A program made the position numbers and the translations under genes. The notes beneath the pieces are model-generated. The model saw only the letters and a list, made by a program, of their open reading frames with translations. It made no database searches and had not been told where the DNA came from. A stretch of 64,000 nucleotides of DNA, from contig WNNJ02000225.1 in assembly GCA_012934845.2 (NCBI GenBank), forward strand, positions 369,867-433,866, given 5' to 3'. This document shows positions 8,751 to 62,104 of the stretch, piece after piece; within the stretch, counting starts at the first letter, position 1; the number at the start of each line of letters is the position of its first letter. This stretch comes from Pomphorhynchus laevis (lineage: Eukaryota > Acanthocephala > Palaeacanthocephala > Echinorhynchida > Pomphorhynchidae).

Positions 8751-8975
8751 GTTTACAGTATTTGATACCGTTTCGTTATCACAATGACTCATCAGTGACA
8801 GATCCCTCCCACTGCTGGGTAGAGTAAGATTAGCAGACGACAGAAAAACGACAAAATCATCATGTGTATGATGATTCGTTTTTTTTTCGTCTACAAGTCC
8901 TCCTCTGCATCCAGTAGTTGGAAGGATCTGGCACTGATGAGTCATTGTGATTACGAAACGGTATAAAATAGTATA
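8751..8975. repeat. Inverted repeat with a hammerhead-like core in each arm
   Basis: Left arm on the minus strand (8797 to 8753): CTGATGA, stem II GTCAT...ATAAC (one mismatch), GAAA, then a 7-bp stem III ACGGTAT/ATACTGT with a short loop, then A, giving a GUA cleavage triplet. Right arm on the plus strand: CTGATGA 8934-8940, GAAA 8955-8958, with stem III decayed. Between the arms lie GAGGGATCTG/CAGATCC-like pairings and a small ATCATCATG/CATGATGAT hairpin. Stem I is not convincingly paired. The reverse-complement copy lies at 22.54-22.76 kb. Confidence 0.6.
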
Positions 8976-16669: not shown

Positions 16670-18720
16670 TTATCCATCCATAAATATTTGCCACTTAAAG
16701 AGTTTAAATTTATTCTTTATATTATTGTGTTGATTTATATATTTTACCATTTTCTGTTTGATTTTATTTTTATAGTAACCTAGTTTAAAATATGTATCAA
16801 TTAAATTATTTTTATGATTTTGAAGAAAGCCAATATCATTACATGTTGTTGCAGTTCTTAAAATTTCATTATTTAATGTATTATATTTTATATTATATGG
16901 TATGCATGAATGCTCATGCAAAAATATGTTTCTTGTAAATTTAAATATGTCATCTTTACGATATAAATTAATAGTAGTTTTAGTTAATGTTAATTTAATG
17001 TTCATATCTATATATACACCTTCTTTATCATTAATATTGGTTTTGTTAAGAATAAAGCTTTCTGGATAAATTTTCTCACTAATTGAATAAAAATTATTGG
17101 AATTAAAACACATATTATCATCAATGTATCGAAACACATATTTCATATATTTATATAGTTTAGACTTAGTTTTTACACAGTTATAAACAAATTCATGTTC
17201 TATAAAGTTTAAAAACAAGTCAGCTATAATTGGGCTACTATTACCAACCCATTGGAACACCTTTTACTTGTCTAAATATAGATGTCCCTACTTTTAAATA
17301 ATTTTGATTTATCAAAATATTTAAGGATTCTATTAATTCAATTTTATCCATATATTTATATTTACTTGATGGTTTAATTTTTGTTAGATAGGCGTTATAG
17401 TTATTATAACATATATATGTATATCTTTTTCCGAATATAAGATTGGTTAATTTTACTAACGCTTCTTTAATATCTACTAAATCTAGATTTGTATAAAGCG
17501 TACTAAAATCGTTTGTATTTATATTTTGAAAATTTATTCCTTTTGTCTGTTCTAAAAATTCTTTTGTAGAATTAATACTGAAATAGTGTTTTATAGCAGT
17601 ATTAATTTCCATTACTTTACAATATTTTTTGAAGAGTGCTTAAATTACTTTAAATATTTTATTCATATAGACAGAAAGTGGTTTTAATGTACATTTAAAC
17701 GCACTACATATGAACCTAGGTTTTATTGGATTTTTATGTAATTTTGGATTCCAATATAATATAGGTATAGTTTTATTATCTGATTCAATTTTTATACCCT
17801 TTTTATCCATTATAGAACAGTGACTTGTAATAATTGTTTCTAAACTCAACTCACTACGTTCATATGTTGGATTTACATTTAAATCATTAGAATTAACCTC
17901 TTTCATTAGTATATCATAATAAAGCTTTTTGCATATGAAGACAAAGTTATTACTAGCTTTATCAATAGTTGTTATTATATAGTTATCCTTTAATTTAGTA
18001 AGTTCTTTATACATATCTTTATTAATTTTATCTTTTCATTCATAATTGTTTATTATTTTCATTTTATTTTTAAGTTTATCAAATATATAATCTTTCCAAA
18101 TGTTTATCTTAGATATATTCAAGCTTTCACTATTAATCAGCTTACCAAAGTAAGCATTTAAGTTATTATATAACGAATTGTAAATTTTATTTTTGTCGTT
18201 GTTATTATTTAATCTATATTTATACCCTTTTGATAGCAGCTTTCTTAATTCACAATTTTCAATTAATTCTAGATTATGGGTACATATATGTTCATTTATT
18301 TTATCAAAACTAAGACTTTTACAATTGCATTCTGTTTCCATTATGTTTCTAATATTATCGTTACATATTGATTTTAATTCTTTATTATAATTACAAATTT
18401 TTCGTCCTAATGGTGGTAGGAGTTTATACCTTATTTTAGGAATATATTTACTTAAATCTGACCCTATTATTTCTTTACTTCTAGAATTATTTAAAAGTTC
18501 GGCTATATTTAAATTATCTATACATTTATTAATGAAGTTTATGGTTAATGTATATTTTCTATTGTTATTTTTAACATTTATTGTACGAGTATAGTATTTT
18601 GTATTACAATAACTGTCTATTACATAATTCAACTTATCATATTCGTTAATTAATCTTTGATTTATTGAACAAATGATATCTTTAGAAAAACTTCTTATAT
18701 TTACAAAGATCTTTTAGCCT
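16670..18720 (-). pseudogene. PLE 2 reverse transcriptase, broken by frameshifts
   Basis: Four overlapping or adjacent minus-strand ORFs (18632-18036, 18014-17640, 17612-17241, 17260-16670) form one protein interrupted by frameshifts and stops. Landmarks: ECNCKSLSFDKINEHICTHN and ELRKLLSKGYKYR (PLE N-terminal region of Naiad type), ITTIDKASNNFVFICKKLYY, LYWNPKLHKNP, DFSTLYTNLD (motif A region), VKGVPMGW continuing as NSSPIIADLF (motif B), and FRYIDDN (catalytic YIDD). The end is KNKFKLFKWQIFMDG and a stop. Codons are extremely AT-rich, unlike PLE 1 or the LINE at 58-64 kb. This fits long residence or an AT-adapted lineage. Confidence 0.8.
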
Positions 18721-21054: not shown

Positions 21055-22710
21055 ACAAAATATTACACAATATGTAGCTTTCGCATAATTAAAATTACCA
21101 GGTAATGAAGTATCAATTGTAGCGTAAGTTATAATTACTAGATAAATAGCACAAATATATGCAAATCACAGAAATAAATAAAAAATCCTAAAACTCTTTC
21201 TGCAAGCTTAAGCGCTCTAGATATTGTTCCAATATTTTATTTAGTTCTTTTACAATTATATAAATGAAAGTGCAAATAAATCTATTTTATGTTGGCAACA
21301 TTCAAGGTGCAGAGATTTATTCTATATAAAGATTCACGTTACTATTCGTTATGTTTAAGTACTCTCACAATATAACCACAAAAGCTACATCTTATCAAAT
21401 GAAGATATGCGTTAGATATATGATTTAGTTGATAGAAAGGCCATATTAGTAATTGCTAATATTTGTCAATTAAAATATTATACGTCTTCAATAATCCCTT
21501 CAATCGACAGAACATTGTTGTTAAAACCGATATTTCGGTTTCCAAGCGAATATTTGTTTTCATAATTAAATGTAAATGATAGTTTTCTATTAATATTTTC
21601 TTTTATTTTTAATTAAATGTAATTTCAATTATAAAATATTAATTTTATATTAAATTATTTATATTAATGAACAAATAATTATTTACAAATGATTACTTGG
21701 CAAATATTTTTTGTCAAGAAATAACAAAAATATATATGTTGAATTTTATTGCACTACATTTACATTTTAAGCTGTGGATATTAAACCTCATTTGCATTGT
21801 TTTTAGTGAATGTCAGTTTCAATGTCAACAAAAATATGATTTAATAATAGAATAACTAAAAAATTAATTTATAAAAAAATGATTTTTTTGTGAAAATAAT
21901 TGTTTTAGTAAACAATTATTTGCAAATTAGCATAGAGCAATACAAAAATTTTGAAAAATTTCTAGTAAACTAAGCGAACAGGAAACTTAAAATACGATTT
22001 AACTCAAAATTCGAACAGTATGACTCGTCCCTATTAATAATACAGAAGACAGTTTTGTTTTACAAAATCCTGTATTTTATTCTACAACAATTATTATAAT
22101 TGTCTTTATGATATCAATCTCAATATTATAATATTAAGAATATTATATATTATAAAATTGTATGTTTTAATTTAACTTAAGTAATACATTTCTTACATTT
22201 TTTGATGTATTCTCAATATAAAATTAAATTTAGTAATTACAATGCTGATGCACTTATAAGATATAATTGTCATAAGTTTTAACTTTTCATTTGGTAAACT
22301 TACATTTAAGAAATGACCAAGCAAAGATTCTGAAAAATTTTAATAAGCCAAACGAAGATTTTGGCTCCGGTTGTATACCCATGCACTGTGCATGAACATA
22401 AGAAATCAGAGAGGGTTCTTAGCAGGTCAACAAAAGTTCTTTCTATTAGTAATGTAGATAATAATTATTTACATTAAAAATTATTATAGATTGTATAACA
22501 ATTAATATTTAATTATTTATATATAATGATTATACTATTTTATACCGTTTCGTAATCACAATGACTCATCAGTGCCAGATCCTTCCAACTACTGGATGCA
22601 GAGGAGGACTTGTAGACGAAAAAAAAACGAATCATCATACACATGATGATTTTGTCGTTTTTCTGTCGTCTGCTAATCTTACTCTACCCAGCAGTGGGAG
22701 GGATCTGTCA

Positions 22711-22757
22711 CTGATGAGTCATTGTGATAACGAAACGGTATCAAATACTGTAAACGT
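22711..22757 (+). ncRNA. Hammerhead-like core (copy of the 8.75 kb arm)
   Basis: CTGATGA 22711-22717, stem II GTCAT/ATAAC with one mismatch, GAAA 22732-22735, stem III ACGGTAT/ATACTGT, then A at 22752 giving a GUA triplet. Cleavage would be predicted between 22752 and 22753. Stem I pairing is not evident. The facing arm on the minus strand (about 22574-22540) is more decayed. Confidence 0.45.
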
Positions 22758-27987: not shown

Positions 27988-30237
27988 TTACCCATTTGAC
28001 GAATCATTGTTAGTGTATAATCTGACTACCTTACTTAAATTTAGATAATAATCAGTTTTGTTCTTAGTTTGATTTACATTAAAGTGATGAGTTATTATTT
28101 TGCGTGCAAAACTAGCAGCTACTCGATATGAAGCGGCAGTTAATGATTGTGTCCCAATGCACATTTTGTACTGATCGATTGGTAAGTCATCTTTATTGCA
28201 TTCTTTTGGGTGATATATATGAACAAGAGAAGGATCTGGTGGTCGGAATACAGTAATGTTAGCCTTTATTAACGCTTCAATAAGATAGACGTCTTCTTTA
28301 CCCCAGCCATCAATGCTGGTATCCCATCCACCAACCAAATCAAGATCTGATTTATAAATACCAATCATCCCGAATCCGTAATACCTCCAGAAGCCCTTGT
28401 CTTCATTTATGCACATATCATTGTCATTGCAAGATGAATTTATGTTTTCATCATCTAAACGCCAAAATGAGTATTCGTTTTGACTAAATACAATAGGCAT
28501 GTATACTTGTATTCCTTTCACTACACTTTGCTGAATTCGTTCAAGTAGAATCTCACTGATAACCATGTCGAGATCAATGAAAAATAAAAGATCACACGAA
28601 CTGAACTGATCAGCTCCCAATGTCCGATACTTTGCTCTATTAAATTTGTTTGAGGTCCAGACTATTTTCATTGGTAATTCTTTCTTTGCATCGTTCAAAA
28701 TACCAACTACATCAGGTGTATCTGCTGATGAAGCCACCACAGTTAAAGTAACAAATCTTGTTTTCTGTCCTTTGACGAAAAAAGCATCTCGAAATGAGCT
28801 TAGAAATTTTCGTAGCATTGTGTGTCGCCCGTAGCAGGGAACAATAAAATTGACCTGTCTAGATCGTTCTAATCGTGTCATGGATTCTATATGCCATTTA
28901 GAGAATACTGGAAAAACTACGGAAATATGCTTTCGCACAAGTTTTGTAGACTTTTTCTTAACATATCTATGATGTTTGTACGTTATATCAAGAATATATA
29001 AGAATCCTGTATCTTCTTTAAATGTAGTATATCCATTTTGTATCGACATGTTATCCACATATCTACCTAACTTTCTAGAGTCCATATTCAACTTATATGT
29101 GTAATAATCGATGATTGTGTTAATTGCTTCTCTATGTACAGCTTGCAAACTCCGAACCGGCTGTCCATCGATCGTTGAATATTGACTTCCACTAGTAAGA
29201 TAAGTCCATATGCATTTATCGCATTGAAATGAATTCAATTGCATGTTATTTTCTTTAAACATATCACCGTAGTTGAGTCTGGCAAGATCCCTTTGCATTT
29301 CCCACAGTCTCTGTTGATTTTGCCGAAGCCTTTGATTTAACAAGGTATAATGCACTTGATAGAATAGCTTGGCATCCTTTATCGGATGTAGATTAATAGC
29401 TCTAGCAACTTTTTCTGTTTGTAGTTCCTGGCGAAATCCGTCTGTTCCCTTAGGGTTGTTGTATAGAAGATGTAACATCTCATAATTCCAAGTACATGAT
29501 ACGTTTGCAAACTTTCGAATGCATCTACCTATTTCAACGTCTTCATGTAAACTTCTCAAGTCCAGCAAGCATTCACTAATATGTGGTACAAATCTTTGTA
29601 ACGTAGTCTTACTAATTATCATTCCTGGACCTCCCATGCAAAAATTGTCCCGAGGTCCAAGTCCGATCTTTCCTTTTTCTGATAGAATACCCATACCTGG
29701 TTGGCCGATAAAATAAGCATTACGACTGTCCATACTGGACAGAAAATTCTGTAATTTATCAGCCTTTATGTACATATCATCATCAACACGCATAAACCAT
29801 TCGTAATTATTGCCAAAGTTGTCGTATAAATGTTTCATCATAAGAAAACTTTTCTTTTGCGGTGGGTATATGTCCGTTACTCCTTTTAAACGAACTAACG
29901 GTATATTTCGTTTAGCCACTGTTTTCTCTGAAGAATAAAAAATAACTTTACCGGGTATGTCTTTAAACCAAGTGTCCATTATGACAGGAATCCGTGTATT
30001 TACGAATTTAGCGCTGGTCATGACCGCCACGAGAACTAATTTCCTTTCTAAGCTTTCGGTATTTATCATTGATGATCCTGATCGACGGCTTCCAAATATT
30101 GAATTCATGCATGTTTTTTTATTTTCTTGAATAGACGAACAAAGTGTTCGTTGGCTGATAATCCAGCCAATTATTGTAAAACTTAAACTCACGAATATAT
30201 GAGTAATCGTAACTTTGTGTCGTCGGTATAAGTTCAT
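27988..30237 (-). CDS. Chondroitin sulfate synthase (two-domain glycosyltransferase)
   Basis: 749 residues in one uninterrupted ORF from ATG at 30237. Residues 9-28 form a single hydrophobic anchor after a short basic cytoplasmic end, as in type II Golgi enzymes. The N-terminal half is a GT31-type glucuronyltransferase with WFMRVDDDMYIK (DDD 152-154) and HEDVEIGRCI near 231. The C-terminal half is a GT7-type N-acetylgalactosaminyltransferase with FIDLDMV (DLD 555-557), GGWGKEDV-like GWGKEDV at 644-650, and LVHIYHPKEC at 671-680. Both metal-binding motifs are present, so it should alternate GlcA and GalNAc in chondroitin chains rather than be a CHPF-like partner. Human CHSY1 is about 800 residues, so the length fits. 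There are no introns, unusual for this family in many animals. Confidence 0.95.
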   Translation of the reverse strand: MNLYRRHKVTITHIFVSLSFTIIGWIISQRTLCSSIQENKKTCMNSIFGSRRSGSSMINTESLERKLVLVAVMTSAKFVNTRIPVIMDTWFKDIPGKVIFYSSEKTVAKRNIPLVRLKGVTDIYPPQKKSFLMMKHLYDNFGNNYEWFMRVDDDMYIKADKLQNFLSSMDSRNAYFIGQPGMGILSEKGKIGLGPRDNFCMGGPGMIISKTTLQRFVPHISECLLDLRSLHEDVEIGRCIRKFANVSCTWNYEMLHLLYNNPKGTDGFRQELQTEKVARAINLHPIKDAKLFYQVHYTLLNQRLRQNQQRLWEMQRDLARLNYGDMFKENNMQLNSFQCDKCIWTYLTSGSQYSTIDGQPVRSLQAVHREAINTIIDYYTYKLNMDSRKLGRYVDNMSIQNGYTTFKEDTGFLYILDITYKHHRYVKKKSTKLVRKHISVVFPVFSKWHIESMTRLERSRQVNFIVPCYGRHTMLRKFLSSFRDAFFVKGQKTRFVTLTVVASSADTPDVVGILNDAKKELPMKIVWTSNKFNRAKYRTLGADQFSSCDLLFFIDLDMVISEILLERIQQSVVKGIQVYMPIVFSQNEYSFWRLDDENINSSCNDNDMCINEDKGFWRYYGFGMIGIYKSDLDLVGGWDTSIDGWGKEDVYLIEALIKANITVFRPPDPSLVHIYHPKECNKDDLPIDQYKMCIGTQSLTAASYRVAASFARKIITHHFNVNQTKNKTDYYLNLSKVVRLYTNNDSSNG

Positions 30238-30239
30238 AT

Positions 30240-33085
30240 TTATATTCTATCAACGTTTCGGGATAACGAACTGAGTGTTGATCGCATCAATAAATGGTTA
30301 AGCCGCATTTGCTAGTAAAACCGGTTTGTTCAAAATCAGAAGAAATGTTCAGTTGTGACTTTTCATCAAAATGAAAGCAAATTATTTTATAAGAAGGAGA
30401 TAAAAAGCAAATCTATTAATGTTTGCATTTTTGTAGATAGGAAAAATCTGGTTAAAATCACCATCCTCCTCCTATGATCTTGTCAAGAGATCCTCTTCAT
30501 TATTAATGGTCATATGTTGTGTGTAGCAAATATATCTTCACAATTTTTATCGAACAATAACTGCTTATAAACTTGTACTACAGGCCCAATTGTATTGCAT
30601 GTAGCAGATTTTTCAGTTGCCTTCACAGATATACAGGAAATTTATCAATTTATTGTTATTATCAGTATTTTAAGACAAATATATCGAACAAAAATAGACA
30701 GAATAATGTTTGCTAAAGTCTTTTGCCCTTTTGCCTTACATCCGACTGTGTGCACAATCAGTGCAACAGAGATTGCCAAGATCTATGCTGTGTTCCCCTA
30801 TTTAAAGTTTACGCATCCTTGAGAGAAGCTTTTAATAAAAAAAATGTTTTTTATTTCTAATTACTTGATTTAATATATGAAGATACGATTGTAAAAAAGC
30901 TATAAAACGCGACTTAGAGATTAATTTATAAAAAAAATTATACAGCAAAAGTTTTCTTCAAATGATACTATAAAAATTAAGTAATTCCTATTTTAAACAA
31001 GACAGCTTTTACGGGAGTAAAATATAGAAAGGTTAAGTGATTAAAGATTACTTTCATTCACAAAGTTAATCAATAAAAGTTTATTATAAATTTTTAAATA
31101 ATACAATAATTTATTTATAAAATAATAATTCAATTATTAATCTTGTATGGGAGCAAAATATAATGGTCAAATTTCGTTTAAGATAAATTGGTTGATATAG
31201 TGGTTGATTATTTGTCCTTGATCTTTTATGATTACATTAGTTTTAATCTTCATGATGATGAAAGCTCTCAAATTTGAAGCATAAAATTATCTTTTCTAAT
31301 TTCAGAAAGAGCTAATTTAGAAAATTATCAAGTAGAAGATGATTAATTGAACCGATGCAAATTGATGTTTCTCTAAAGACAGAAATTACTATCGCTTAAA
31401 TATGAATACATTAGAACTGAGCGTGTAAGTATAATATTGGGAACATAGATCGTCTGACGAACGTCCGAGAGATGTATACTTTTAAAAATTCAATAACGCA
31501 GAATATTCTTAACATATTTGAAGTGTGACTCCCGATATATTAATTTTAAGTTATTGTTTAATTTAAAAAGCACAACAGCAAACAATCATTTTTGTTCTTA
31601 TAATATGTTACAAGTTCCGTGTTTCATTTTAGCATATTAAGCTGATGTCACTGGTTTTACTCGTCATCGTAATCAGCCAACAGAGAAGGTATGTATTCTT
31701 TAGTCTATAATAACAGACTAAAGTAAGCGGTAGTATAATTTCTTTGATACAAGTTTGACCAATTGTTACCATTAGTTAATTTATACAACACCGTACATAA
31801 GCTCTTGCAATACTTCACATATATAAGCTTTCCACGTTTACTTTCTTAACGAGATCGGCTAACTTTACTTGACAGTTTATTATTCTTCGCTAATAATGAG
31901 TTGATAATATCTCATTTTGTTTGTCTAAAACGCTGATTGAAGACGATAAACGCATCGTGTTATAGGATCTGGTCAACATATAGCGCACGTTGTTCGCAAT
32001 CATAGTTACTCTTTCTGTTGGAAAATATTTGATAAGGAAACTTGCTCGTGGGAGGCTTTAGGTTGAATTGCTTTTATGCCTAAAAACGTTTGAACAAAGT
32101 GTGTACCTTCATCATATTATGAAGCTACTTTCTCTTGGCAATTCATCACTTTTTAAATGTCTTCATAATTATGAAACGTTATAATTATGAAAGTTGCCAA
32201 TAGGATTCAGATACTGCTGCATTAAACCCCTCCATAATGAAAATGATGATAATCAATTCTATCTAATTACCGGTGTATTTCAAAAACTATCATTTCTCCT
32301 ATAATATAATTAGCTTTTTTGTTTCTGATAATTAGTTTTTTTTCATTTGTTTATGCAGACTCGTATTGCAACTAAAATCAATCAAATGTTTTAATTAGAA
32401 GACAAACTGTTCACGTCTATCTTCCATTTGGACACTTCTCAATTCCAGACGAGATCAAAGTTGCATACTCAACACGATTCGGTAAAATTCAAACGATTAA
32501 AAGCATTTTTATTGTTTTAAGCATAAACTATTAAATTTATGAAAATAAATTTAAAGTTGATGATATATTGAGACTTTTGAGTCAATATTGTTTGATATGG
32601 AAGAATTCCAATATTACTTGTAATTTAATTTAAAACTCAAATGTTTAATGCTGACTATTCTCTGTTAAAAATAGGATTTTAGGAATGAAAGTTAAGATGT
32701 ATGATGCAGTAAACACCTATTTTATTATTTTTAATTATTTGTATAGTGAATTTGTTTGCATTAGAGTTTAAACTTTGAGTTTTTGAATTATTCGTTTTGT
32801 TTGAATCGAAATTTAAATTTGCGAAAAATTAGAAGACGGAGAATGTTTTTCTTTATTTTATATTTCTTTCTAGCTGGCATTATTAAATAAATTTCTTATT
32901 TTGACATGAATTTCGGAAAATTCAAAATATTTTGTTTGATTACAAATAGTGACAAACTGATCCCTGATAAATAAAGTATTTATTTTTCCAGTAATTCCTA
33001 AGTTTATTAAATCGATTTTATATCGATAACTACCGTGAATAATAATAACTAAATAATATTAAAATAACTTGATGAATGTATTATG
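30240..33085. other. Intergenic DNA, no gene supported
   Basis: A 75-codon ORF at 30595-30822 has no recognisable feature. The rest is AT-rich, with no repeat partner that I noticed. The promoter of the chondroitin synthase should lie just right of 30237, but I see no clear core element. Confidence 0.4.
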
Positions 33086-33089
33086 TACG

Positions 33090-34360
33090 TTGTTTAAATC
33101 CTATCTATAAGCCAACAGCAGTACTGCAGTAGTACTAATCCGATACCTGCATTTCACGCTTCGGTACTTTTAATGTTGGATGACGATTATTCGACTCGTC
33201 TGCTTTAATGACAATTAGATTTAATAAAAGACTTTCGACTTAAATTTTGCAAATTTAATTGGAATCATTTATGATTTTAAATTTAATCTGCGTTGGTAGG
33301 CGACGGTGCTACCTTCAATTTAAAAAGCTACCTATTTCTTAAATTAATTACTATTATCAAACCAGTCATCTATAGCTTGTTTCATAATTTTAAGTTGATA
33401 TACCTGTGCAGTTATTGTTACGATTGAAATTTTAATTACTATTTTTATTCTGCAGCCTACTTTAATTCTATCCATAATTGGTAGACCTCATCAGATACGG
33501 ATTCAATATCTACGTTTCACAATCACTCGACTCATCTGCTTTAATCGTCAATTAGATTCAATAAAATACTTTCGTCTTACATTTTGCAAATTTAATTGAA
33601 ATCATTTCTGATTTCAAATTAAATCAGCGTTGGTAGGGAAAGGTGCTTCATTCAATCTGACAACCTACCGATTTTTTCAATTGCAATTTTCAAACTAGTC
33701 ATCTATAATTTGTTTCCTTATTTTAAGTTGAAGTGTCTGTGCAATCATTGTTACCATTGAAATTTTGATAACTATTTTTATTAGATGACTATTTTTATAT
33801 GACTTTTTTATACTATTTTTAATTTTGATGACTATTGTTTCCTAATTTTAAATTAATTTAATTGTGCAGTCATTGTTACGATTGAAATTTTGATGACTAT
33901 TTTATTCTGCACGCTACTTTTATCTTATCTATAAACCAATAACCGTACGGTACATTTCAGTATTGGTGGATCTCATCAGCTACTAATTCAACACTTGCGT
34001 TTCATATTTTGGTCCTTTTATATATTCTATATAGCCTTGTAATAGGTGATATCCTTCAATTTATAAGACAACTCTTTTTTAAAATAGGCATTCATAATTT
34101 GCGTCCTAATTTTAAGTTGATATGCCTGTGGAGTCATTGTTTCATTCCTATTTTACAAATTTAATTGAAATCCTTTCTGATTTAAAATTAAATAAGCGCT
34201 TGAAAATTGTTTGTAATTGTTTGAGAATTGTATTATTTTGTTTGAGAATTGTTTGTAAAATCGATAAATTCAAAAATCTAATAAATAATTTAAAAATCGA
34301 TGAATCCTATTTAATTCTATTTATTCGCTTCAATTCTATTTATTGACTTATAATTAGGAT
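33090..34360 (-). repeat. Decayed tandem array with hammerhead-like cores, left of the DUF4139 gene
   Basis: Units near 33100, 33470 and 33935 share, on the plus strand, TATCTATAA(G/A)CCAA, CCTCATCAG-type and TTTCAC/TTTCAT blocks, then TTTAAT...CAATTAGAT, GCAAATTTAATT, AGCGTTGGTAG and GTCATTGTTACGATTGAAAT. Spacing is roughly 370-470 bp. On the minus strand each unit carries a GAAA-type block upstream of CTGATGAG (for example CTGATGAGGTC at 33490 and CTGATGAGATCC at 33975). This is the same order as the SINE-like family at 40.6 kb, but degraded. Confidence 0.6.
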
Positions 34361-36279: not shown

Positions 36280-36480
36280 TACACGTTGCTTCAATCCTAT
36301 ATTTCTAAACCAACAGCAGCACACTAGATTTCAGTATTGGTTGGCCTCATCAGTTGTTGATCCAACACTTGTTCACATTTCGGTTCTTTTAACACTAAAT
36401 GTGGCATACTGCTATTGACTTAAGCATAGGATTAAAGCAACGTGCCGTTATCAAAATTTCAAGTGTAGCAAATGACTGCA
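36280..36480 (-). repeat. Hammerhead-like repeat unit right of the DUF4139 gene
   Basis: On the plus strand it has CAATCCTATATTTCTAAACC, GCCTCATCAGTTGTTGATCC and CACATTTCGGTTC. On the minus strand this is GAACCGAAA ... CTGATGAGGCC, the same family as 33.1-34.3 kb. The DUF4139 gene is thus bracketed by units of one repeat family. Confidence 0.6.
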
Positions 36481-39659: not shown

Positions 39660-40540
39660 ACAATGAGATATAAAAGATTAGAGATAACCTGAAATATAAG
39701 AGATATTTCAACCTGAAATATAAGAAATATTTCAGCTAATAAGAGATAACCTGTATGAATAAAAAAGGATTTTTATTGAGCTGATTTTATTACGATGTGA
39801 TACCATGCTGTGATATCATGCTGGTTAGCTGGAAGTTACATTACTTGAAAATATGTCGTGACTTTATTGAACGATAAATATTAGAGGTTATGGTCATAAG
39901 ATGATATAATTTCGATTTTTGATGCAACTTGATAAAGGTGGCGAGTACAAGACAATTTGAAGGTAAGAAGAATAGCGAGAAGCGTGAAACTATAAACGAA
40001 TCTAAGAGATTAGAATTGAAGTGTAGGTAATCTTGAATACAAAGAGAGCCTCCTTTCAAAGTTTACCTACTTTAGATTTTTCAATGTTTTTTTAAGCTCG
40101 TTTGAACGACATAAGTCGACGAGGGTGTGAAAACTATATTTCGCTGAACGCAAGCACGGGATAGGAACAACTAGATTGTCTGTCTAGAGAATTTAAGCAT
40201 TGTCACGGCAGCTGGAGCGAAGATGTGAAGGAAGGTTAACCAAGGAAAGGAAAAAATCAGAGGACTCAGAGGATCATTTTACATTACAACACTCTATAAG
40301 CAGTTAAAATGCATATTCCGTCAAAAAAAAGCAAAGAATTAAGCTAAGGAGCTTAAGCAGATGGCCATATATTCACTTAAATATGAAGTTTCTCTAAAGG
40401 TATACCACAATTGACCAAATCGAATGCTTTCGAAAATTCGATGAATATTGAATATAAAACACTCTTTGTATAATGTAAATATATGTGTTGCATGATGCAG
40501 CATGACCTCATGAATATCAAATACTGATATTAATGATCTA
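39660..40540. other. Intergenic DNA, no gene supported
   Basis: Purine-rich on the plus strand from about 40190 to 40270 (GGAAAGGAAAAAATCAGAGG). No ORF or repeat partner was identified with confidence. Confidence 0.35.
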
Positions 40541-40622
40541 CAACACTGGAGTTGAATCGCGATAATGACGTCCTGAGTTCAAATCCGATCAGCACCAGTG
40601 TACGGAGTAAGCAGATAATAAA

Positions 40623-40668
40623 GGTCGAAACGTGAAATGTAGGTCTGGGTCAGCAGCTGATGAGACCC
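40623..40668 (+). ncRNA. Hammerhead-like core, permuted order (copy a)
   Basis: GGTC 40623-40626, GAAA 40627-40630, stem III ACG/TGT with loop TGAAA, A at 40641 (GUA triplet), CTGATGA 40657-40663, GACC 40664-40667. GGTC pairs with GACC to close stem II, giving a type II (stem II open-ended) arrangement. Between the triplet and CTGATGA only CTG/CAG pairs, so stem I is weak. Confidence 0.5.
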
Positions 40669-40927
40669 ATCCAGGCTGATTAGTAGCGTCCTACTGTATC
40701 AATAACAGAAGCAATACCTGTGAGGATAATGTTGTGCCACAACCAGAAGAATTTCAGCTCACAGATGCATTTACGTTAAAATAAAAACATTCATTGCAAG
40801 TGGCAGCATGAAAACACTGGTAGTGCTAGCGAATCACACAACTAGGTAGGTTTCTAATAGATCGTTACAATACGATCCCCTACTGGAAGTAATATACAAC
40901 AATGTATATCTACACAACTGGAGCAGC

Positions 40928-40980
40928 CAGCCAAGTAGATGTAGCGTTGAATCAAGATACAGACGTCCTGTGTTCAAATC
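40928..40980 (+). promoter_or_regulatory. tRNA-like A box and B box (putative Pol III promoter)
   Basis: CAGCCAAGTAG (40928-40938) matches the A box consensus TRGYNNARNNG at 10 of 11 positions. GTTCAAATC (40972-40980) matches the B box GWTCRANNC completely. Their starts are 44 bp apart, the spacing in a tRNA gene. The core at 41017-41063 lies just downstream. No complete cloverleaf was found, so this is a tRNA-derived SINE head and not a tRNA gene. Confidence 0.6.
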
Positions 40981-41016
40981 CGATCAGCATCAGTGTACGG
41001 AGAAAGCAGATAATAA

Positions 41017-41063
41017 GGGTCGAAACGTGAAATGTAGGTCTGGGTCAGCAGCTGATGAGACCC
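41017..41063 (+). ncRNA. Hammerhead-like core, permuted order (copy b)
   Basis: Stem II is 5 bp here: GGGTC 41017-41021 with GACCC 41059-41063. GAAA is 41022-41025, stem III ACG/TGT, and CTGATGA 41052-41058. This is the best-paired copy and has the tRNA-like promoter boxes upstream. Confidence 0.5.
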
Positions 41064-41223
41064 ACCCAGACTGATTAGTAGCGTCCTGCTGTATCAAGAA
41101 TAGGAACAATACTAGTGAGGATAATGTCGTGCCACAACCATATTAAATAAAGTGTTTAATTTAATACAGACGTCATCAGTTCAAATCTGATCAGCACCAG
41201 TGTACGAAGTGAGCAGATAATAA

Positions 41224-41270
41224 GGGTCGAAACGTGAAATGTAAGTCTGAGTCAGTAGCTGATGAGACCA
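41224..41270 (+). ncRNA. Hammerhead-like core, permuted order (copy c)
   Basis: GGTC before GAAA (41229-41232) and GACC after CTGATGA (41259-41265) again pair. Only a B box (GTTCAAATC, about 41172) is upstream. Copies near 41435 and 41730 have lost a core base (TTGATTA and CCGATGA). Confidence 0.45.
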
Positions 41271-42240
41271 AGCCAGGCTGATTAGTAGCGTGCTGTTGTA
41301 TTAAGAATTGGAACAATACCTGTGATTTAAATGTCGTGCCACAACCATATTCAATTAAGTGTTCAATTTAATACATACATCATCAGTTTAAATCCGATCA
41401 GCATCAGTGTACAGAGTAAGCAGATAATAAAGGTGAAACGTGAATGTAGGTATGGGTTAGTAGTTGATTAAATACACCCAGGCTGATTAGTAGCGTCCTG
41501 CTGTATTAACAATAGGAGAACAATAGCAGTGAGGATAATGTCGTATCACAACCAGAAGAGTTTCAGCTCACAAATGATATCCACCCAGGTTGATTAGTAG
41601 CGTCCTGCTGTATCAAGAATAGGAACAATACCAGTGAGGATAATGTCGTGTCACAACCATATTAAATAGTTTAATTTATTACAGACGTCATTAGTTCAAA
41701 TCTGATGACGGAGTAAGCGGATAAGGGTCGAAACGTGAAATGTTGGTCTAGGTCAGCAGCCGATGAGACCAAGCCAGGCTGATTAGTAGCGTCCTGTTGT
41801 ATTAAAAATTGGAACAATAGCAGTGAGAATAATATCGTGTCACAACCAGAAAAATTTCAACTCACAGTTACAGTCAAATTAAATTATACAATTAAATATT
41901 ATCGGTTGTGACCGAAATATCAAGCATTCGGTCGGCAAAAATGTCGATAAAAATTCGGGGCGGAAATGCTTATGGAAAATACGACCAATGAAAAAATACT
42001 GCTCGTGTAAACAATAGTAAAAAGATTCACAATAGTAAAATGACAGCTTATGGTTTACTGTCCGGTGAACAATTCGTATAGGAACGAACAGATAATTAAA
42101 CAATCGGTGTGTGGTGGATTCGAATTGCGAATAATAGTTACGCCCCTACCAAATATAGAACACATCAATTGTAATTTGTTATATAAGCCAGATATAAACC
42201 AGCATTTCGGCGACAAAAAGTTCAGCAGAAACAGTAACAT

Positions 42241-42285
42241 GACCGAAACACGAAATGTAGGCGTGGGCTCACTGCTGATGAGGTC
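42241..42285 (+). ncRNA. Hammerhead-like core with compensatory stem II changes (copy f)
   Basis: GACC 42241-42244, GAAA 42245-42248, stem III ACA/TGT with loop CGAAA, A 42259, CTGATGA 42275-42281, GGTC 42282-42285. Compared with the 40.6-41.3 kb copies, both strands of stem II changed (GGTC/GACC to GACC/GGTC), so pairing is kept by two compensatory substitutions. The distal stem I pair also flips (CTG/CAG to GTG/CAC). The surrounding repeat is otherwise diverged. Confidence 0.55.
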
Positions 42286-42769
42286 CATCTACGTTGATTG
42301 TAGTGGACAGTGATGCTGATAGGATTGAAAGAACAACATGATGATTATATGAAACCGACCAATGAAGGAATGCGCTTTTGTAAGCAATGAATATTCACAA
42401 TAATAAAATAATATCTTGATGCAACTATTACATTTTGTGTTAGGTCGATATATCAATTTAAGGTATTATTACTTTTAAGAAGTTCTAATTGCTTAATCTA
42501 ATTACAATTGAATAATCCTTGATAATGGTGTGCCCATGTGCCACTGAAATATTGAATATAAATTGTAAAATAAATAATCGTCTCTTCGCCTTATTTACAA
42601 TTATGAAGCGACAGAAAGTGTAAGGTATTATCCCTTTATATTACTTTGTTATAGCGGAAATCTGATTACTTAATTGAAGCTACATATTTTGAGGCTTTAA
42701 TTATTAAAAATTAAAATTATTTAAAAATGTAAATATCTTTCTCGTAAATACAATTTTATGAACCAGTAT

Positions 42770-44769: not shown

Positions 44770-47000
44770 AACCGAATAATAACAGAATAATAACAGAATA
44801 ATATTAAAAATAAATAACAGAATAATAATAACAGAATAACAATAATAACAGAATAATATAAAAAATAAATTTAAACTGTTAGGGGAAATTTGTATAGATG
44901 GAAAATACACAATACTATTATTAATCATTAAAGTTTTTTATTAATACATTTTTTAAACTTGGGTATAATATTATAAATATTATAATAACAGAATAATAAC
45001 AGAATAATATTAAAAATAAATAACAGAATAATAACAGAATAACAATAATAACAGAATAATATAAAAAATAAATTTAAACTGTTAGGGGAAATTTGTATAG
45101 ATGGATAATACACAATACTATTATTAATCATTAAAATTTTTTATTAATACATTTTTTAAACTTGGGTATAATATTATAAATATTATAATAACAGAATAAT
45201 AACAGAATAATATTAAAAATAAATAACAGAATAATAACAGAATAACAATAATAACAGAATAATATAAAAAATAAATTTAAACTGTTAGGGGAAATTTGTA
45301 TAGATGGATAATACACAATACTATTATTAATCATTAAAATTTTTTATTAATACATTTTTTAAACTTGGGTATAATATTATAAATATTATAATAACAGAAT
45401 AATAACAGAATAATATTAAAAATAAATAACAGAATAATAACAGAATAACAATAATAACAGAATAATATAAAAAATAAATTTAAACTGTTAGGGGAAATTT
45501 GTATAGATGGATAATACACAATACTATTATCAATCATTAAAATTTTTTATTAATACATTTTTTAAACTTGGGTATAATATCATAAATATTATAATAACAG
45601 AATAATAACAGAATAATCTGAGAAATTTTATTTTCCTCACTTCCGCTTGTAAGCGATGGAGGTAGAAAATACAGAATATAACAGAATAATAACAGAATAA
45701 TAACAGAATAATATTAAAAATAAATAACAGAATAATAACAGAATAACAATAATAACAGAATAATATAAAAAAAATTTAAACTGTTAGGGGAAATTTTATT
45801 TTCCTCACTTCCGCTTGTAAGCGATGGAGGTAGAAAATACAGAATATAACAGAATATAACAGAATAATAACAGAATAATATTAAAAATAAATAACAGAAT
45901 AATAACAGAATAACAATAATAACAGAATAACAATAATAACAGAATAATATAAAAAAAAATTTAAACTGTTAGGGGAAATTTGTATAGATGGATAATACAC
46001 AATACTATTATTAATCATTAAAATTTTTTATTAATACATTTTTTAAACTTGGGTATAATATTATAAATATTATAATAACAGAATAATAACAGAATAATAT
46101 TAAAAATAAATAACAGAATAATAACAGAATAATAATAACAGAATAATATAAAAAATAAATTTAAACTGTTAGGGGAAATTTGTATAGATGGATAATACAC
46201 AATACTATTATTAATCATTAAAATTTTTTATTAATACATTTTTTAAACTTGGGTATAATATTATAAATATTATAATAACAGAATAATAACAGAATAATAT
46301 TAAAAATAAATAACAGAATAATAACAGAATAACAATAATAACAGAATAATATAAAAAATAAATTTAAACTGTTAGGGGAAATTTGTATAGATGGATAATA
46401 CACAATACTATTATCAATCATTAAAATTTTTTATTAATACATTTTTTAAACTTGGGTATAATATTATAAATATTATAATAACAGAATAATAACAGAATAA
46501 TATTAAAAATAAATAACAGAATAATAACAGAATAATAATAACAGAATAATATAAAAAATAAATTTAAACTGTTAGGGGAAATTTGTATAGATGGATAATA
46601 CACAATACTATTATTAATCATTAAAATTTTTTATTAATACATTTTTTAAACTTGGGTATAATATTATAAATATTATAATAACAGAATAATAACAGAATAA
46701 TATTAAAAATAAATAACAGAATAATAACAGAATAACAATAATAACAGAATAATATAAAAAAAATTAAACTGTTAGGGGAAATTTGTATAGATGGATAATT
46801 TACAATACTATTATTAATCATTAAAATTTTTTATTAATACATTTTTTAAACTTGGGTATAATATTATAAATATTATAATAACAGAATAATAACAGAAAAA
46901 TATTAAAAAGAAATAACAGAATAATAACAGAATAACAATAATAACAGAATTATATAAAAAATAAATTTAAACTGTTAGGGGAAATTTGTATAGATGAATA
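44770..47000 (+). repeat. 203-bp satellite derived from the PLE 2 3' end, about 10 copies
   Basis: Units begin ATTTTTTATTAATACATT at about 44930, 45133, 45336, 45539, 46020, 46220, 46423, 46623 and 46823. Each contains ACAGAATAATAACAG blocks and ends with a reading NKFKLLGEICIDG and a stop. That matches the PLE 2 C-terminus NKFKLFKWQIFMDG and a stop. At 45600-45860 the array is interrupted by two copies of a hairpin-forming insert (CCGCTTGTAAGCG with flanking TTTTCCTC/GGAGGTAGAAAA). Neighbouring units are nearly identical, so amplification is recent. Confidence 0.9.
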
Positions 47001-47099
47001 ATACATATAATAACGTAAAATAAAATAAATAAAATAAAATTATAAAAAATTATATTATAAATATTATAAATTATTATTTGTGTATAATTTACAAATTTG

Positions 47100-51630: not shown

Positions 51631-51893
51631 ATATATTGTAAAAGTATCTTATTAACACCAATCAACAAAAAGTTTTAATATTCGAACGTTTCGGTTCTTA
51701 AACCTTCATCAGCATTGTAAGTAGTTAATATGTATAACAAGATAGTATAGTTAATATGTATAACAAGATAGTTTAAACTATCTTGTTATACATATTAACT
51801 ACTTACAATGCTGATGAAGGTTTAAGAACCGAAACGTTCGAATATTAAAACTTTTTGTTGATTGGTGTTAATAAGATACTTTTACAATATATA
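51631..51893. repeat. Large palindrome with a hammerhead-like core in each arm
   Basis: The arms meet at the 8-bp palindrome GTTTAAAC (51771-51778) and extend to ATATATTGTAAAAGTATC on the left and its complement on the right. The left arm has one extra tandem copy of about 27 bp (GTTAATATGTATAACAAGAT). On the plus strand the right arm has CTGATGA (51811-51817), A, GGTT-TAAG-AACC, GAAAC. The left arm has the same on the minus strand (51712-51688). This CTGATGAAGG...CCGAAACGTT block is common in PLE-related terminal repeats. No ORF. Confidence 0.9.
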
Positions 51894-53649: not shown

Positions 53650-54115
53650 AAAGATATAAAACATTCTTTAATTTAGCATCTGTGAGCTAAATTTCTTATG
53701 CTTGTGGCATGACTATTTAGAATTGCTCCCATTCTTGATACATTAGGACACTACTAATAGTATAGGTCGGTCTCATCAACTGCGGACCCAGAGTTTCATT
53801 TCACGTTTCGAGTAATATTACATGTTTAATCGCTACAGTAGGTGCTGATTAGATTTGAACTGAGGACGTCTGTATCGTGATTCATAATATACACGTCTGT
53901 ATCGTAATTCAACGTTACATACACTAGGCTGGCTGCTCCAGTGATGTAGATATACATTGCTGTATATTTCTTTTGGTAGGGGATCGTATTCTAACGATTT
54001 ATTAGAAATCTACCCTGTGTATGATCTGCTACTACTAATAGCATAGGTCGGTCTCACCAACTGCGGATCACGTTTCGAGTAATATTATATGTTTAATCGC
54101 TACACTAGTGCTGAT
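53650..54115 (-). repeat. SINE-like element, inverted copies of the 40.8-41.2 kb family
   Basis: The minus strand reads CAGCCAGCCTAGTGTATG (A box region), GATACAGACGTC, GTTCAAATCTAATCAGCACC (B box region), CTCGAAACGTGAAATG, GCAGTTGATGAGACC and ATGCCACAAGCATAAG. The order is the same as at 41 kb. The core has one change (TTGATGA). A second partial copy lies at 54015-54115. Confidence 0.75.
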
Positions 54116-59644: not shown

Positions 59645-59653
59645 TCCATCACA

Positions 59654-60226
59654 ATGCAGAGTACTCGTGAGCCTTTTTCACTGAATGTCCTTCAGTGGAA
59701 TTCGGGAGGTGCTTCTGCCCTTAGACTTTTATCCGGTAGAGATGCAGATGTTATAGTCCTTCAGGAGACGCGGTCTATCCGTCTTCCCCAGGACATTACT
59801 CGATTTATCCCAAAGCATATCTGTTCCCACTATACTCCGTACATAACCCCGCCTCACTCCTCTTCATCTCAAGGTCTTTTAACCCTAGTTAAATGCTCCT
59901 TAAGGTCTTCCCTCCTACTAAACTATTCTTGTCCAGCCCTGTCTTGTTTAGTTATTTCACTCTGTAAGAACGGTAAACGCCTCAGTCTAGCCAATGTCTA
60001 CATCCGGCCAGGGGAGATTCACAAGAACCGCGACCTCCTGGATGGTATTATTGATAGCGGCTATGACATGATACTTGGAGACTTCAACGACAGAACTGGT
60101 CGTTGGATCAACGCATCACTTCGCAGAGCTAGGAACGGTTATCTTATTCATAAACCACCGTCCCCCACCTTTCATTGCACATCAACAAATTCAATCCTCG
60201 ACATTTTACTGCTTCACTCGAGGTGA
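59654..60226 (+). pseudogene. LINE 1 ORF2, endonuclease part
   Basis: Starts 9 bases after the ORF1 tail stop, in the same frame. It is an apurinic-type nuclease with LQWNSGG (N16), VLQETR (E38), ANVYIRPG, LGDFND (D143, N145) and SPTFHCTSTNSILDILL. Together these supply the metal-binding residues. The frame breaks at 60226; in another frame the sequence continues toward the RT part, so a small insertion or deletion separates the two. The SDH motif is lost or altered in this damaged stretch. Confidence 0.85.
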
Positions 60227-60313
60227 TTGTTAAAACCCTTGTGCACGGAGCAGTCGCGCCAGCAATTGTACACCTCTCATGACCTAATTCGTTAGAGAAT
60301 TGAGGAAGATACA

Positions 60314-62104
60314 TTGCTTCGAAGGAGGTTTCACTTTGATCCGATCAGAGTAGCCTTCTTTCAGGCGGCTATCCGACTCTTTCCCCGAATAGGAAATCAG
60401 AGTCTGACCGAATTTAATACCTACCTCTTTTCGCAAGCTACCGCGATTCTATCGACTACCTATAAAGGTCGTATATACAATCCCACTCCGACAAAACTCA
60501 AGGTCCTAGCAAAATTACTGAACCTCCCTAATCTCTCTGCTTCCGCCAAACAGGCCCTCTCGAATGAATACTGGAGCGTTAGATATAGGTTCCAGCTGGG
60601 TAGGGATAGGGCGAGCATTGCTTGCTTTCACCCTTCTCAGTCTTCCTTTTGGAAGATTTTCAAGAAGGAGAAGTTTGTTTGCTGGAAGGATAGAGCATTG
60701 GGTTGGATAGGGAATGTAGGCCTTGAAAAAGTTTTGGAGGAGTCACTAGCCCTACACAACTATGGAGCCACTCAATCACCTCAACCAATCCCGCCTTGGT
60801 GTAACTTCAGGAGTAGGGATATATCTGTTACGGATATTCTTAACTCCTGGGGTCCACTCCCGGGCACCTCCAAATCCGTCGCTCCACTTTCTTCTCGGGT
60901 CTGTCAGCTTTTGACAGCTGATCAGAGAAGAGAGGTGGCCGTCACAATGCTTTTAGCCTCCCCATCCGATGTAGCAGGCATCAATATTAGTAAGCGTGTT
61001 TTTATTCCTAAGAAAAAATCCTGCTCATGTCCTAAAGACCTGCGTCCCATTTCGATTCAAAATTCCCTCGTGTCTATTTACGAAAAAGCGCTTGCGCGTA
61101 AAATTTGCGACCATTTAAGTAGGCGTAATTTGATCCCTCCAGGTTTTCATGGGTTCGTCAAAGGTCGCTTGTTCCATTCAGCAGTAGGTGAGGTGGAACA
61201 GTTTTGTCGGGAGAATAGCCATCGCCTAGTTGTGGCTATTTTCCTTGACTTTTCTGCTGCATTTGACCGCATCTCCATTCCTTTTGTGATCTCTTCTCTC
61301 AGGTCCCTCGGGTTGCCTGCGAGAATTGTGAACAGGGTGGAGATCCTGCTGTACACCAAGCGGTTTTATTATGAAGACGACCCTGATGCGCGTCAGTTCT
61401 ACCCTATTACGGGTGTGCCTCAAGGTTCACCTCTTTCTCCTATCTTATATCTTGCTGCCTCCATTAATCTATTTAAAATATTTAAACGCGAACAACGTCT
61501 TGTGGTGTATGCTGATGACACCACAGCCCTGTTCTCTGGACACAGGTGCAAAGACGTAGTTTCTGACATCAGCCGCTTCTTTTTAAGATTAAAAGACCTT
61601 TTACCCATATCCAATCTTATTTTAAACTCCGCCAAATCGCAGGCGGTTGTCTTTCATGGCACCACTGCAACAAAGAAAAAACTTAAGAGATTAGCACTCT
61701 CTGCACTCTCTTCCATATTTGCCTCTGAACCACTCCCCACCTTCACAAGTCGAGTAAAATACCTGGGGTTCACCGTTACGGTGAACTGGTCGGCGAAAGC
61801 TGACCTGGATAGACTTAAACGTATCCTGAAGAAAGCTAGGTGGGCTCTGAAACGGGCTCAGCATCTGTCATTGAACGGGAAAACCCAGGCGCGCCTTTGG
61901 GGTACCTGGGCTATCTCGGGACTTGTCTTCTTCTCAAGAGGACGTCCCCCAGAGCAAAGGCAAACGTTTCTTAAGCTCCTCGTCTCTCGTTTACCCAGCA
62001 TAGTCCGCGCCGATTGGATTCTTCGGGGGGTGAAAGACCCCGGGTGGTTCAGTCGGAAGGCGGCGTGTTGGATCGGTTGGGGGCTCAGATCCCCCTGGAC
62101 CTGA
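60314..62104 (+). pseudogene. LINE 1 ORF2, reverse transcriptase part
   Basis: 596 open codons in the endonuclease frame. PKDLRPISIQNSLVSIYEKA (fingers), FLDFSAAFD with D312 and D318 region (motif A), GVPQGSPLSP at 367-376 (motif B), and YADD at 399-402 (motif C) are all intact. The thumb has KYLGFTVT, and the end is CWIGWGLRSPW and a stop. No RNase H or C-terminal zinc finger. The RT could be functional if fused correctly, but two stops upstream (60226 and about 60290) separate it from the nuclease. Confidence 0.85.

Follow-up and report, generated by a model that had tools for sequence, protein, structure and literature searches.

The stretch of DNA analysed here (the window) comprises 64,000 nucleotides of the acanthocephalan Pomphorhynchus laevis (assembly GCA_012934845.2, contig WNNJ02000225.1, positions 369,867 to 433,866 of the forward strand) and carries copies of a short non-coding repeat with a motif resembling a hammerhead ribozyme whose core blocks stand in an unusual order. 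A BLAST search with the unit of the family termed alpha revealed an array of whole, truncated and deleted alpha units at 40551-41886 (+), containing motif copies a to e, with a tandem period of 207 according to TRF. An insertion of 1.19 units of a second family, beta, was delimited by BLAST at 41982-42408 (+) and holds motif copy f. Inspection by eye of 40540-42300 indicated that copy b is the sole intact-looking copy of the interval: copy a has a C.A mismatch in stem I, copy c a G at position 17, copy d no CTGATGA word, copy e the word CCGATGA, and copy f an A.G at 15.1/16.1.

The core blocks are named after Eckert et al. 2023 (PMC10085705), with G for the GAAA block, C for CUGAnGA and S for the cleavage site. 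The letters of copy b (41009-41095, +) showed helices I, II, III and X to be all paired, over 6, 5, 4 and 8 bp, respectively. Block G consists of a stem II strand GGGTC (41017-41021) and the core GAA (41022-41024); it is followed by the 5' strand of stem III, ACGT (41025-41028), whose first A, 41025, is position 15.1. The linker GAAATGTAG leads to the 5' strand of helix X, GTCTGGGT (41038-41045). Block C comprises the stem I strand CAGCAG (41046-41051), the core CTGATGA (41052-41058) and the stem II strand GACCC (41059-41063), which pairs with 41017-41021, and is followed by the 3' strand of helix X, ACCCAGAC (41064-41071), which pairs with the 5' strand. After the linker TGATTAGTA, block S contains the 3' strand of stem III, GCGT (41081-41084, paired with 41025-41028), C17 (41085) and, directly after GTC, the stem I strand CTGCTG (41086-41091); by analogy with the hammerhead core, the cut is predicted between 41085 and 41086. 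The whole is enclosed by helix Y, a weak helix of 4 bp present in the predicted local fold, whose strands are GATA (41009-41012), separated by ATAA from the stem II strand, and TATC (41092-41095). Helices I, II, III and X covary. At the alpha joint between stem III and helix X (41025-41036 with 41072-41084) GAA lies opposite AGUA, and GUA in beta and delta, two of the further families described below; the joint recalls a bulged-G (loop E) motif in alpha, beta and delta and reads tandem GA in gamma. If this loop E-like joint is real, stem III would be longer than its Watson-Crick pairs.

Since the partner of the stem I strand was found 3' of the CTGATGA block, the linear order within a single motif is GAAA block, CUGAnGA block, site block, that is, type GCS, and this order was observed in all four families recovered from the genome (alpha, beta, gamma and delta). 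As read from the sequences, type GCS is a pseudoknotted, non-circular permutation in which stems I, II and III would all cross one another. The initial annotation of this DNA, made from its letters alone, had instead proposed a short interspersed nuclear element (SINE) that combined a tRNA-type RNA polymerase III (Pol III) promoter with a type II hammerhead, in which both the cleavage site and a closed stem I must lie between GAAA and CTGATGA. Much of its description was confirmed: GAAA precedes CTGATGA, ACGTGAAATGT followed by A supplies the hairpin and GUA between them, stem II of copy b is GGGTC/GACCC over 5 bp, and copy f at 42241 keeps this stem as GACC/GGTC by two double substitutions, so that a hammerhead core of permuted order within an interspersed repeat is supported, as are the compensatory changes of its stem II. 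On the contrary, the type II order did not hold, as no stem I closes between GAAA and CTGATGA and CAGCAG pairs with the downstream CTGCTG. Inspection by eye showed no core-adjacent pairing between the two blocks in any of the four families, and gamma has no hairpin with GUH there.

The promoter fared only in part. The B-box GTTCAAATC is present on the forward strand at 40577, 40972, 41179 and 41694, but no A-box matching TRGYNNARNNG occurs in 40500-42300; a tRNA-type promoter or SINE origin is therefore not established. The B-box pattern matched 15 places on the forward strand of the window, 20 Markov shuffles averaging 10.2 matches; the alpha unit has one match and the beta and gamma units none, and ARAGORN (bacterial code) found no tRNA in the window. 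A type II hammerhead in a tRNA-derived SINE, which would account for the GAAA-hairpin-GUA-CTGATGA order, the stem II and the B-box match of alpha, is thus contradicted by the unclosed stem I, the gamma motifs, the missing strict A-box and the beta and gamma units, and we regard it as very improbable. The analysis also brought out what the initial annotation lacks: the downstream strand that pairs with CAGCAG, the GTCTGGGT/ACCCAGAC helix, the arrays of units and further decayed copies of the minus strand.

In Eckert et al. (PMC10085705), types I, II and III are equated with the orders CGS, GSC and SCG, and SGC and CSG are orders validated in vitro. Type I within a single unit was rejected for the window repeat, there being no GAAA between CAGCAG and CTGCTG; the order is not SGC either, the site block being last and not 5' of the GAAA block. 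No Rfam family matched the window at gathering thresholds. The HH9 model gave a weak match at 41036-41108 (14.2 bits, E 8, cut-off 52) because CAGCAG/CTGCTG fits its stem I, and a genome scan with RF00008 and RF02276 gave no match but was uninformative, its controls being silent too. In the open-licence PubMed Central literature a 'type-GCS' hammerhead was found in PMC10085705 alone, and no article was found for hammerhead ribozyme together with Acanthocephala.

Hammerhead words are short, and a chance resemblance within a repeat had to be considered. Copy b was the only place of the window, both strands included, that passed a loose scan requiring at least 4, 4 and 3 bp in stems I, II and III (4/4/3). 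In a first-order Markov sequence with the dinucleotide composition of the window (1.024 Gb, one strand) the same scan found 123 places, about 0.12 per Mb; an earlier, smaller control had given 2 matches in 3.84 Mb. Only 5 places reached 5/5/4, none of them with a helix X of at least 6 bp, and 7 places had such a helix X at any stem length, so the quality of copy b was not attained once. These counts, together with the covariation across families, leave chance a negligible likelihood.

The four families were recovered by DNA searches of the genome (249.4 Mb, 3,242 contigs) for which the queries were copy b, copy f together with its flanking sequence, a third family seen in locus L007 and the minus-strand copy at 36307-36386. 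All keep stems I, II and III and the linking helices X and Y with different letters. In beta, stem II is TGGACC/GGTCCA (6 pairs in the commonest intact form, 5 in many), III ACAC/GTGT, X GCGTGGG/CCCACGC, I TCACTG/CAGTGA and Y ATCAGCA/TGCTGAT, with the site GTA. Gamma has GGGAC/GTCCC, ACAAC/GTTGT, ACAGAG/CTCTGT, GTCCA/TGGAC and GCATGCT/AGCATGC for II, III, X, I and Y, with the site GTC. The delta letters, taken from 22 aligned copies including two of the window, are GGACC/GGTCC, ACGT/GCGT, GTATTGG/CCAATAC, CAGTAG/CTGCTG (with one G-U) and AGCCAA/TTGGCT in the same order, with the site GTA; in the majority sequence the first strand has A as its second letter, which spoils one pair in many copies. 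The hammerhead core requires CUGAUGA, GAA, an A-U at 15.1/16.1, a G-C at 10.1/11.1 and no G at position 17. These requirements hold in the commonest alpha, beta and gamma sequences and in the delta majority sequence, and several single copies, c, e and f of the window among them, break them.

Exact pattern searches on both strands revealed 2,050 genome places for a 28-nt anchor common to alpha and beta, 1,504 for the beta X-C-X' segment (a set overlapping the former), 193 for gamma and 60 for delta, while the reversed control pattern gave 0 places for each of the four counts. Searches of plasmid DNA with gamma and of phage DNA with alpha gave no match. Delta was detected through window matches to R1, a covariance model of alpha and beta alone, and its pairing in a model-guided alignment is owed partly to the model.

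Copy f scored 86.9 bits with R1 at 42241-42313 (+), the training rows including beta sequences and excluding copy f itself. Its parts are, in order, II' at 42241-42244, GAA at 42245-42247, III at 42248-42251, X at 42261-42267, I at 42269-42274, CTGATGA at 42275-42281, II at 42282-42285, X' at 42288-42294, III' at 42303-42306, A17 at 42307 and I' at 42308-42313; helix Y was seen by eye as CAGCA (42223-42227) with TGCTG (42314-42318). On the minus strand, R1 identified decayed delta copies at 33938-34015 (45.6 bits) and 36307-36386 (37.3 bits), the latter being the seed of the delta search, in which 46 matches were listed including itself. A decayed alpha copy (53734-53814, 49.3 bits) and two weak delta-like remnants within 33117-33533, at 33117-33167 and 33448-33533 (15.7 and 15.2 bits, E 0.13 and 0.18), lie on the same strand.

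Alignments across families showed that the stems change on both sides. In the strictest test, A3, in which nine alpha and beta rows were aligned with MAFFT and the linkers kept, 96.6% of 207 cells were paired and 10 of the 23 pairs had both-sided changes, a number reached by 5 of 500 shuffles; the score of 0.495 was reached by none, slid versions scored at most 0.133 and had 0, 0, 0, 0, 0 and 1 both-sided pairs in six slides, and the X pair 29-48 fails in beta. In A2 (12 rows of alpha, beta and gamma, linkers cut out) 98.3% of 240 cells were paired and 14 of 20 pairs had changed on both sides, with a score of 0.771 against at most 0.116 when slid. A4 covered four families in 15 rows, with linkers cut out, helix Y included and decayed delta copies left unaltered; its 11 delta rows derive from 20 fetched copies, of which fixed-spacing extraction gave 12, two of them identical, and the 8 left out had altered core words or spacing. 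Here 88.3% of 360 cells were paired, 18 of 24 pairs had changed on both sides (Y 4/4, II 2/5, III and X 8/10, I 4/5), the score was 0.520 against at most 0.142 when slid, and all five measures were reached by 0 of 500 shuffles. Each of the stems I, II and III that flank the core had both-sided changes in A2, A3 and A4. The shuffle figures are not probabilities because the rows are related and gamma was chosen for its stems. For one X pair of beta, the 1,504 exact R..Y patterns of the genome comprise 1,183 A-T, 300 G-C and 21 mixed places, and this switch may be a single event in one subfamily.

We conclude, with a probability of about 0.84, that the repeats carry the sequence of a hammerhead ribozyme whose blocks follow the non-circularly permuted order G-C-S. 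Several results weigh against this conclusion. In A2 and A3 the counts of further standard pair types (26 and 15) were not above the shuffle means (27.2 and 18.9, respectively); in A4 the count exceeds that of the shuffles. Within families, sets of 64, 76 and 83 copies (33, 51 and 35 distinct) showed little covariation, and broken pairs outnumbered compensated ones, as expected of decaying copies; the families were compared with each other because the variation within them is mostly decay. Local folds were not more stable than those of shuffled sequences in alpha (z -0.69) and beta (z 0.50), and were mildly so in gamma (z -1.77). R1 matches gamma weakly (10 matches in four of the five gamma loci given, 13.3-20.6 bits, E 0.007-0.56), so that the membership of gamma rests on the stems themselves. 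The alpha helix Y has only 4 bp, and the path from stem III to helix X is short in gamma, with linkers of 6+3 nt compared with 9+9 nt in alpha. For the SGC order, Eckert et al. (PMC10085705) raise a steric worry over a short path from stem III to the linking helix, which applies to the GCS motif of these repeats as well.

The chief rival is a nested hammerhead formed across tandem units, in which block C of one unit joins blocks G and S of the next (C1-G2-S2) in type I order and without a pseudoknot, or in which two RNAs swap their C blocks as a dimer. It requires pairs identical to those of the cis form, so that alignment tests cannot separate the two, and arrays of several units are common; both facts speak for the nested form. 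Such a nested form would, on the other hand, need a stem II loop of some 200-360 nt, while G, C and S sit within about 75 nt, and helices X and Y gather the C, G and S blocks of a single unit. Copies with a single motif, such as that in contig C698 (263 bp), have the motif intact, which is no proof of function. We consider the nested form improbable. A further alternative is a structured RNA signal of hammerhead descent, for example a binding site of a Penelope-type reverse transcriptase, whose fold is kept and which either does not cleave itself or depends on a protein. In the anole element Poseidon, a Penelope-like hammerhead was inactive without its protein and was needless for insertion in vitro (PMC11167929), which also speaks against a cleavage role in the present repeats, and the favoured 3' ends of the repeats lie just downstream of the motif. 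Such a signal is made quite unlikely by the core positions, which hold in the commonest or majority sequence of every family.

From the order, the pairing, the covariation between families, the copy number and the array ends, all of which were computed, we infer a mechanism comprising folding in cis, cleavage, circular RNA and an enzyme. Stem III would enclose helix X, whose hairpin loop would consist of the stem I strand, CUGAUGA and the stem II strand. Stem I would form between the 5' half of this loop and the 3' flank immediately after position 17, and stem II between the 3' half of the loop and the 5' flank immediately ahead of GAA. The usual three-way catalytic core would thus be rebuilt, although its stems cross; X would tie the C-block ends of stems I and II, and Y their other ends. 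Self-cleavage is predicted, by analogy, after GUC in alpha and gamma and after GUA in beta and delta. Tandem transcripts would be cut by the ribozyme into pieces of unit length (258-396 nt), which may circularise; multimeric or circular RNA would serve as template for a Penelope-type reverse transcriptase that starts at two internal sites and places the copies in AT-rich targets. That the cis-cleaving, pseudoknotted type-GCS hammerhead in this way does the RNA processing for four or more families of animal elements, mobilised by Penelope and borne by circular RNA, appears to us somewhat favoured.

Units of 396, about 360 and about 258 nt, with a G+C content of 40-43%, occur in tandem and head-to-head arrays with fractional copy numbers. 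Analysis of the array ends, from which the satellite segment of contig C1921 was omitted, revealed that 78 of 94 3' ends (alpha 31/36, beta 22/30, gamma 25/28) but 6 of 90 5' ends (3/35, 2/28 and 1/27) fell inside two windows that cover 11-16% of the unit and were picked on the same data, the alpha query ending near the first site. Counted from the predicted cut, the 3'-end sites lie about 54-65 and 91-99 nt downstream in alpha, while the distances are 58-65 and 92-99 nt in beta and about 104-117 and 138-151 nt in gamma, the two favoured sites being some 35 nt apart. The 3' flanks (n=78) are AT-rich, with 20.3% G+C over 40 nt and 14.6% over 10 nt, against 33.5% in the fetched segments. Both outer ends could be assigned in 19 of 30 head-to-head insertions; in 18 of these the two arms end at different 3' sites, one arm at each, and the remaining one uses the same site twice and lies in a contig with two almost identical flanks. 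The arms look as if two target strands had been primed at different RNA sites. In contig C1921 (locus L003) a truncated alpha copy, joined by other filler sequence, has turned into a satellite of about 318 bp, which spans the entire fetched stretch and has the motif intact in several repeats.

Because the 3' ends lie beyond the predicted cut, and because many arrays are longer than a single unit, an uncut multimeric or circular RNA was probably the template. In the anole Poseidon element PAc reverse transcription starts at two internal sites with a 30-40-nt 'tail' between them, both target strands are cut and extended, and the targets are AT-rich (PMC11167929); from the numbers of that article one start site was computed to be 85-92 nt past the hammerhead cut. 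By this analogy the insertion ends look like a Penelope-like mechanism and not like a Pol III SINE. Reverse-transcriptase-like open reading frames seen by eye at 4601-5314 and 16670-18713 gave 0 Pfam matches in the 5 pieces scanned, no genome-wide search having been made for a partner enzyme.

Other features of the window were recorded. A Pfam scan of 8 pieces of its open reading frames matched solely at 59645-60223 and 60296-62101; the region 59645-62104 has endonuclease-like and reverse transcriptase reading frames (PF03372, PF00078) and looks like a long interspersed nuclear element. Two inverted pairs of CTGATGAG...CGAAAC, with the usual type I spacing, lie at 8775-8971 and 22552-22740 and are near-identical to each other in opposite orientation; Rfam gave a type III hammerhead at 8765-8804 with 19 bits against a cut-off of 48.5. 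At 51670-51850 a palindromic pair CTGATGA-AGGTTTAAGAACC-GAAAC is present on both strands, and we take these words to resemble the minimal hammerhead of Penelope-like elements. Long tandem arrays occupy 783-1874 (period 282 bp) and 44776-47005 (period about 200 bp). A chondroitin sulfate synthase-like gene, a single intronless open frame, occupies 27988-30246 (-); among the matches listed, the best named one is from Adineta vaga, and others are from further bdelloids, a centipede, Seison and the acanthocephalan Neoechinorhynchus agilis (41% over 74%).

In the work of Eckert et al. (PMC10085705) scepticism is urged on type GCS because it was represented by a single sequence with no covariation, and no non-circular permutation is described from the genome of a known organism except that Caballeronia candidate. 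The four covarying families answer the covariation point computationally and offer many natural constructs. If the proposed reading is true, all six hammerhead block orders occur in nature, GCS being the last of the six; a non-circularly permuted RNA would then exist in an animal, and hence in a eukaryote, with its topology tied to Penelope-type mobility. The repeats would also allow a comparison, in natural sequences, of how a single catalytic core serves in pseudoknotted and in nested form, and they suggest that such a core can be rewired yet kept by evolution. Tandem or circular RNA would be an evolutionary path to this order, because the same blocks can work nested across units first and later fold within one.

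Comparison with known systems places the repeats between several of them. The schistosome Sm-alpha SINE-like repeats carry a type I hammerhead and a Pol III promoter; a short non-coding hammerhead repeat is common to both, while the present repeats have the GCS order and no A-box and B-box pair. The metazoan non-LTR (long terminal repeat) retrozymes of Cervera and de la Pena 2020 (PMC7229834) are likewise built from non-coding units of 150-450 bp in tandem, which contain a hammerhead and have a G+C content below 50%. Short tandem non-coding units with a hammerhead were found here too, but the retrozymes carry type I, in contrast to the type GCS of these repeats, for which circular RNA would be predicted. 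Penelope-like elements, represented by anole Poseidon PAc, resemble the repeats in having two start or end sites, separated by 30-40 nt, downstream of a hammerhead, in forming tandem copies and in their AT-rich targets; the anole ribozyme is described against the canonical hammerhead (PMC11167929), whereas the units here are of 258-396 nt and known without an autonomous partner.

The nearest likenesses in topology come from Eckert et al. (PMC10085705). The SGC order, which has been validated by experiment, turns into GCS by circular permutation, and the type-SGC HRIMA-1 motif has the cyclic order in common with the repeats. Its helix joining stems I and II on the side of the C block, which was needed for cleavage of SGC-3, is the counterpart of X. 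In SGC, known from metatranscriptomes, the S block is first and a linker of about 3 nt joins the other ends of stems I and II; here the S block is last and helix Y takes that place. GCS-1 of Caballeronia peredens, likened to the repeats by its description, shares the block order GAAA, CUGAnGA, site. It is the one bacterial sequence that supports type GCS, cleaves at 0.014 per min in vitro, lacks covariation and was called of unclear significance in the same text, in contrast to the four covarying animal families with helices X and Y described here.

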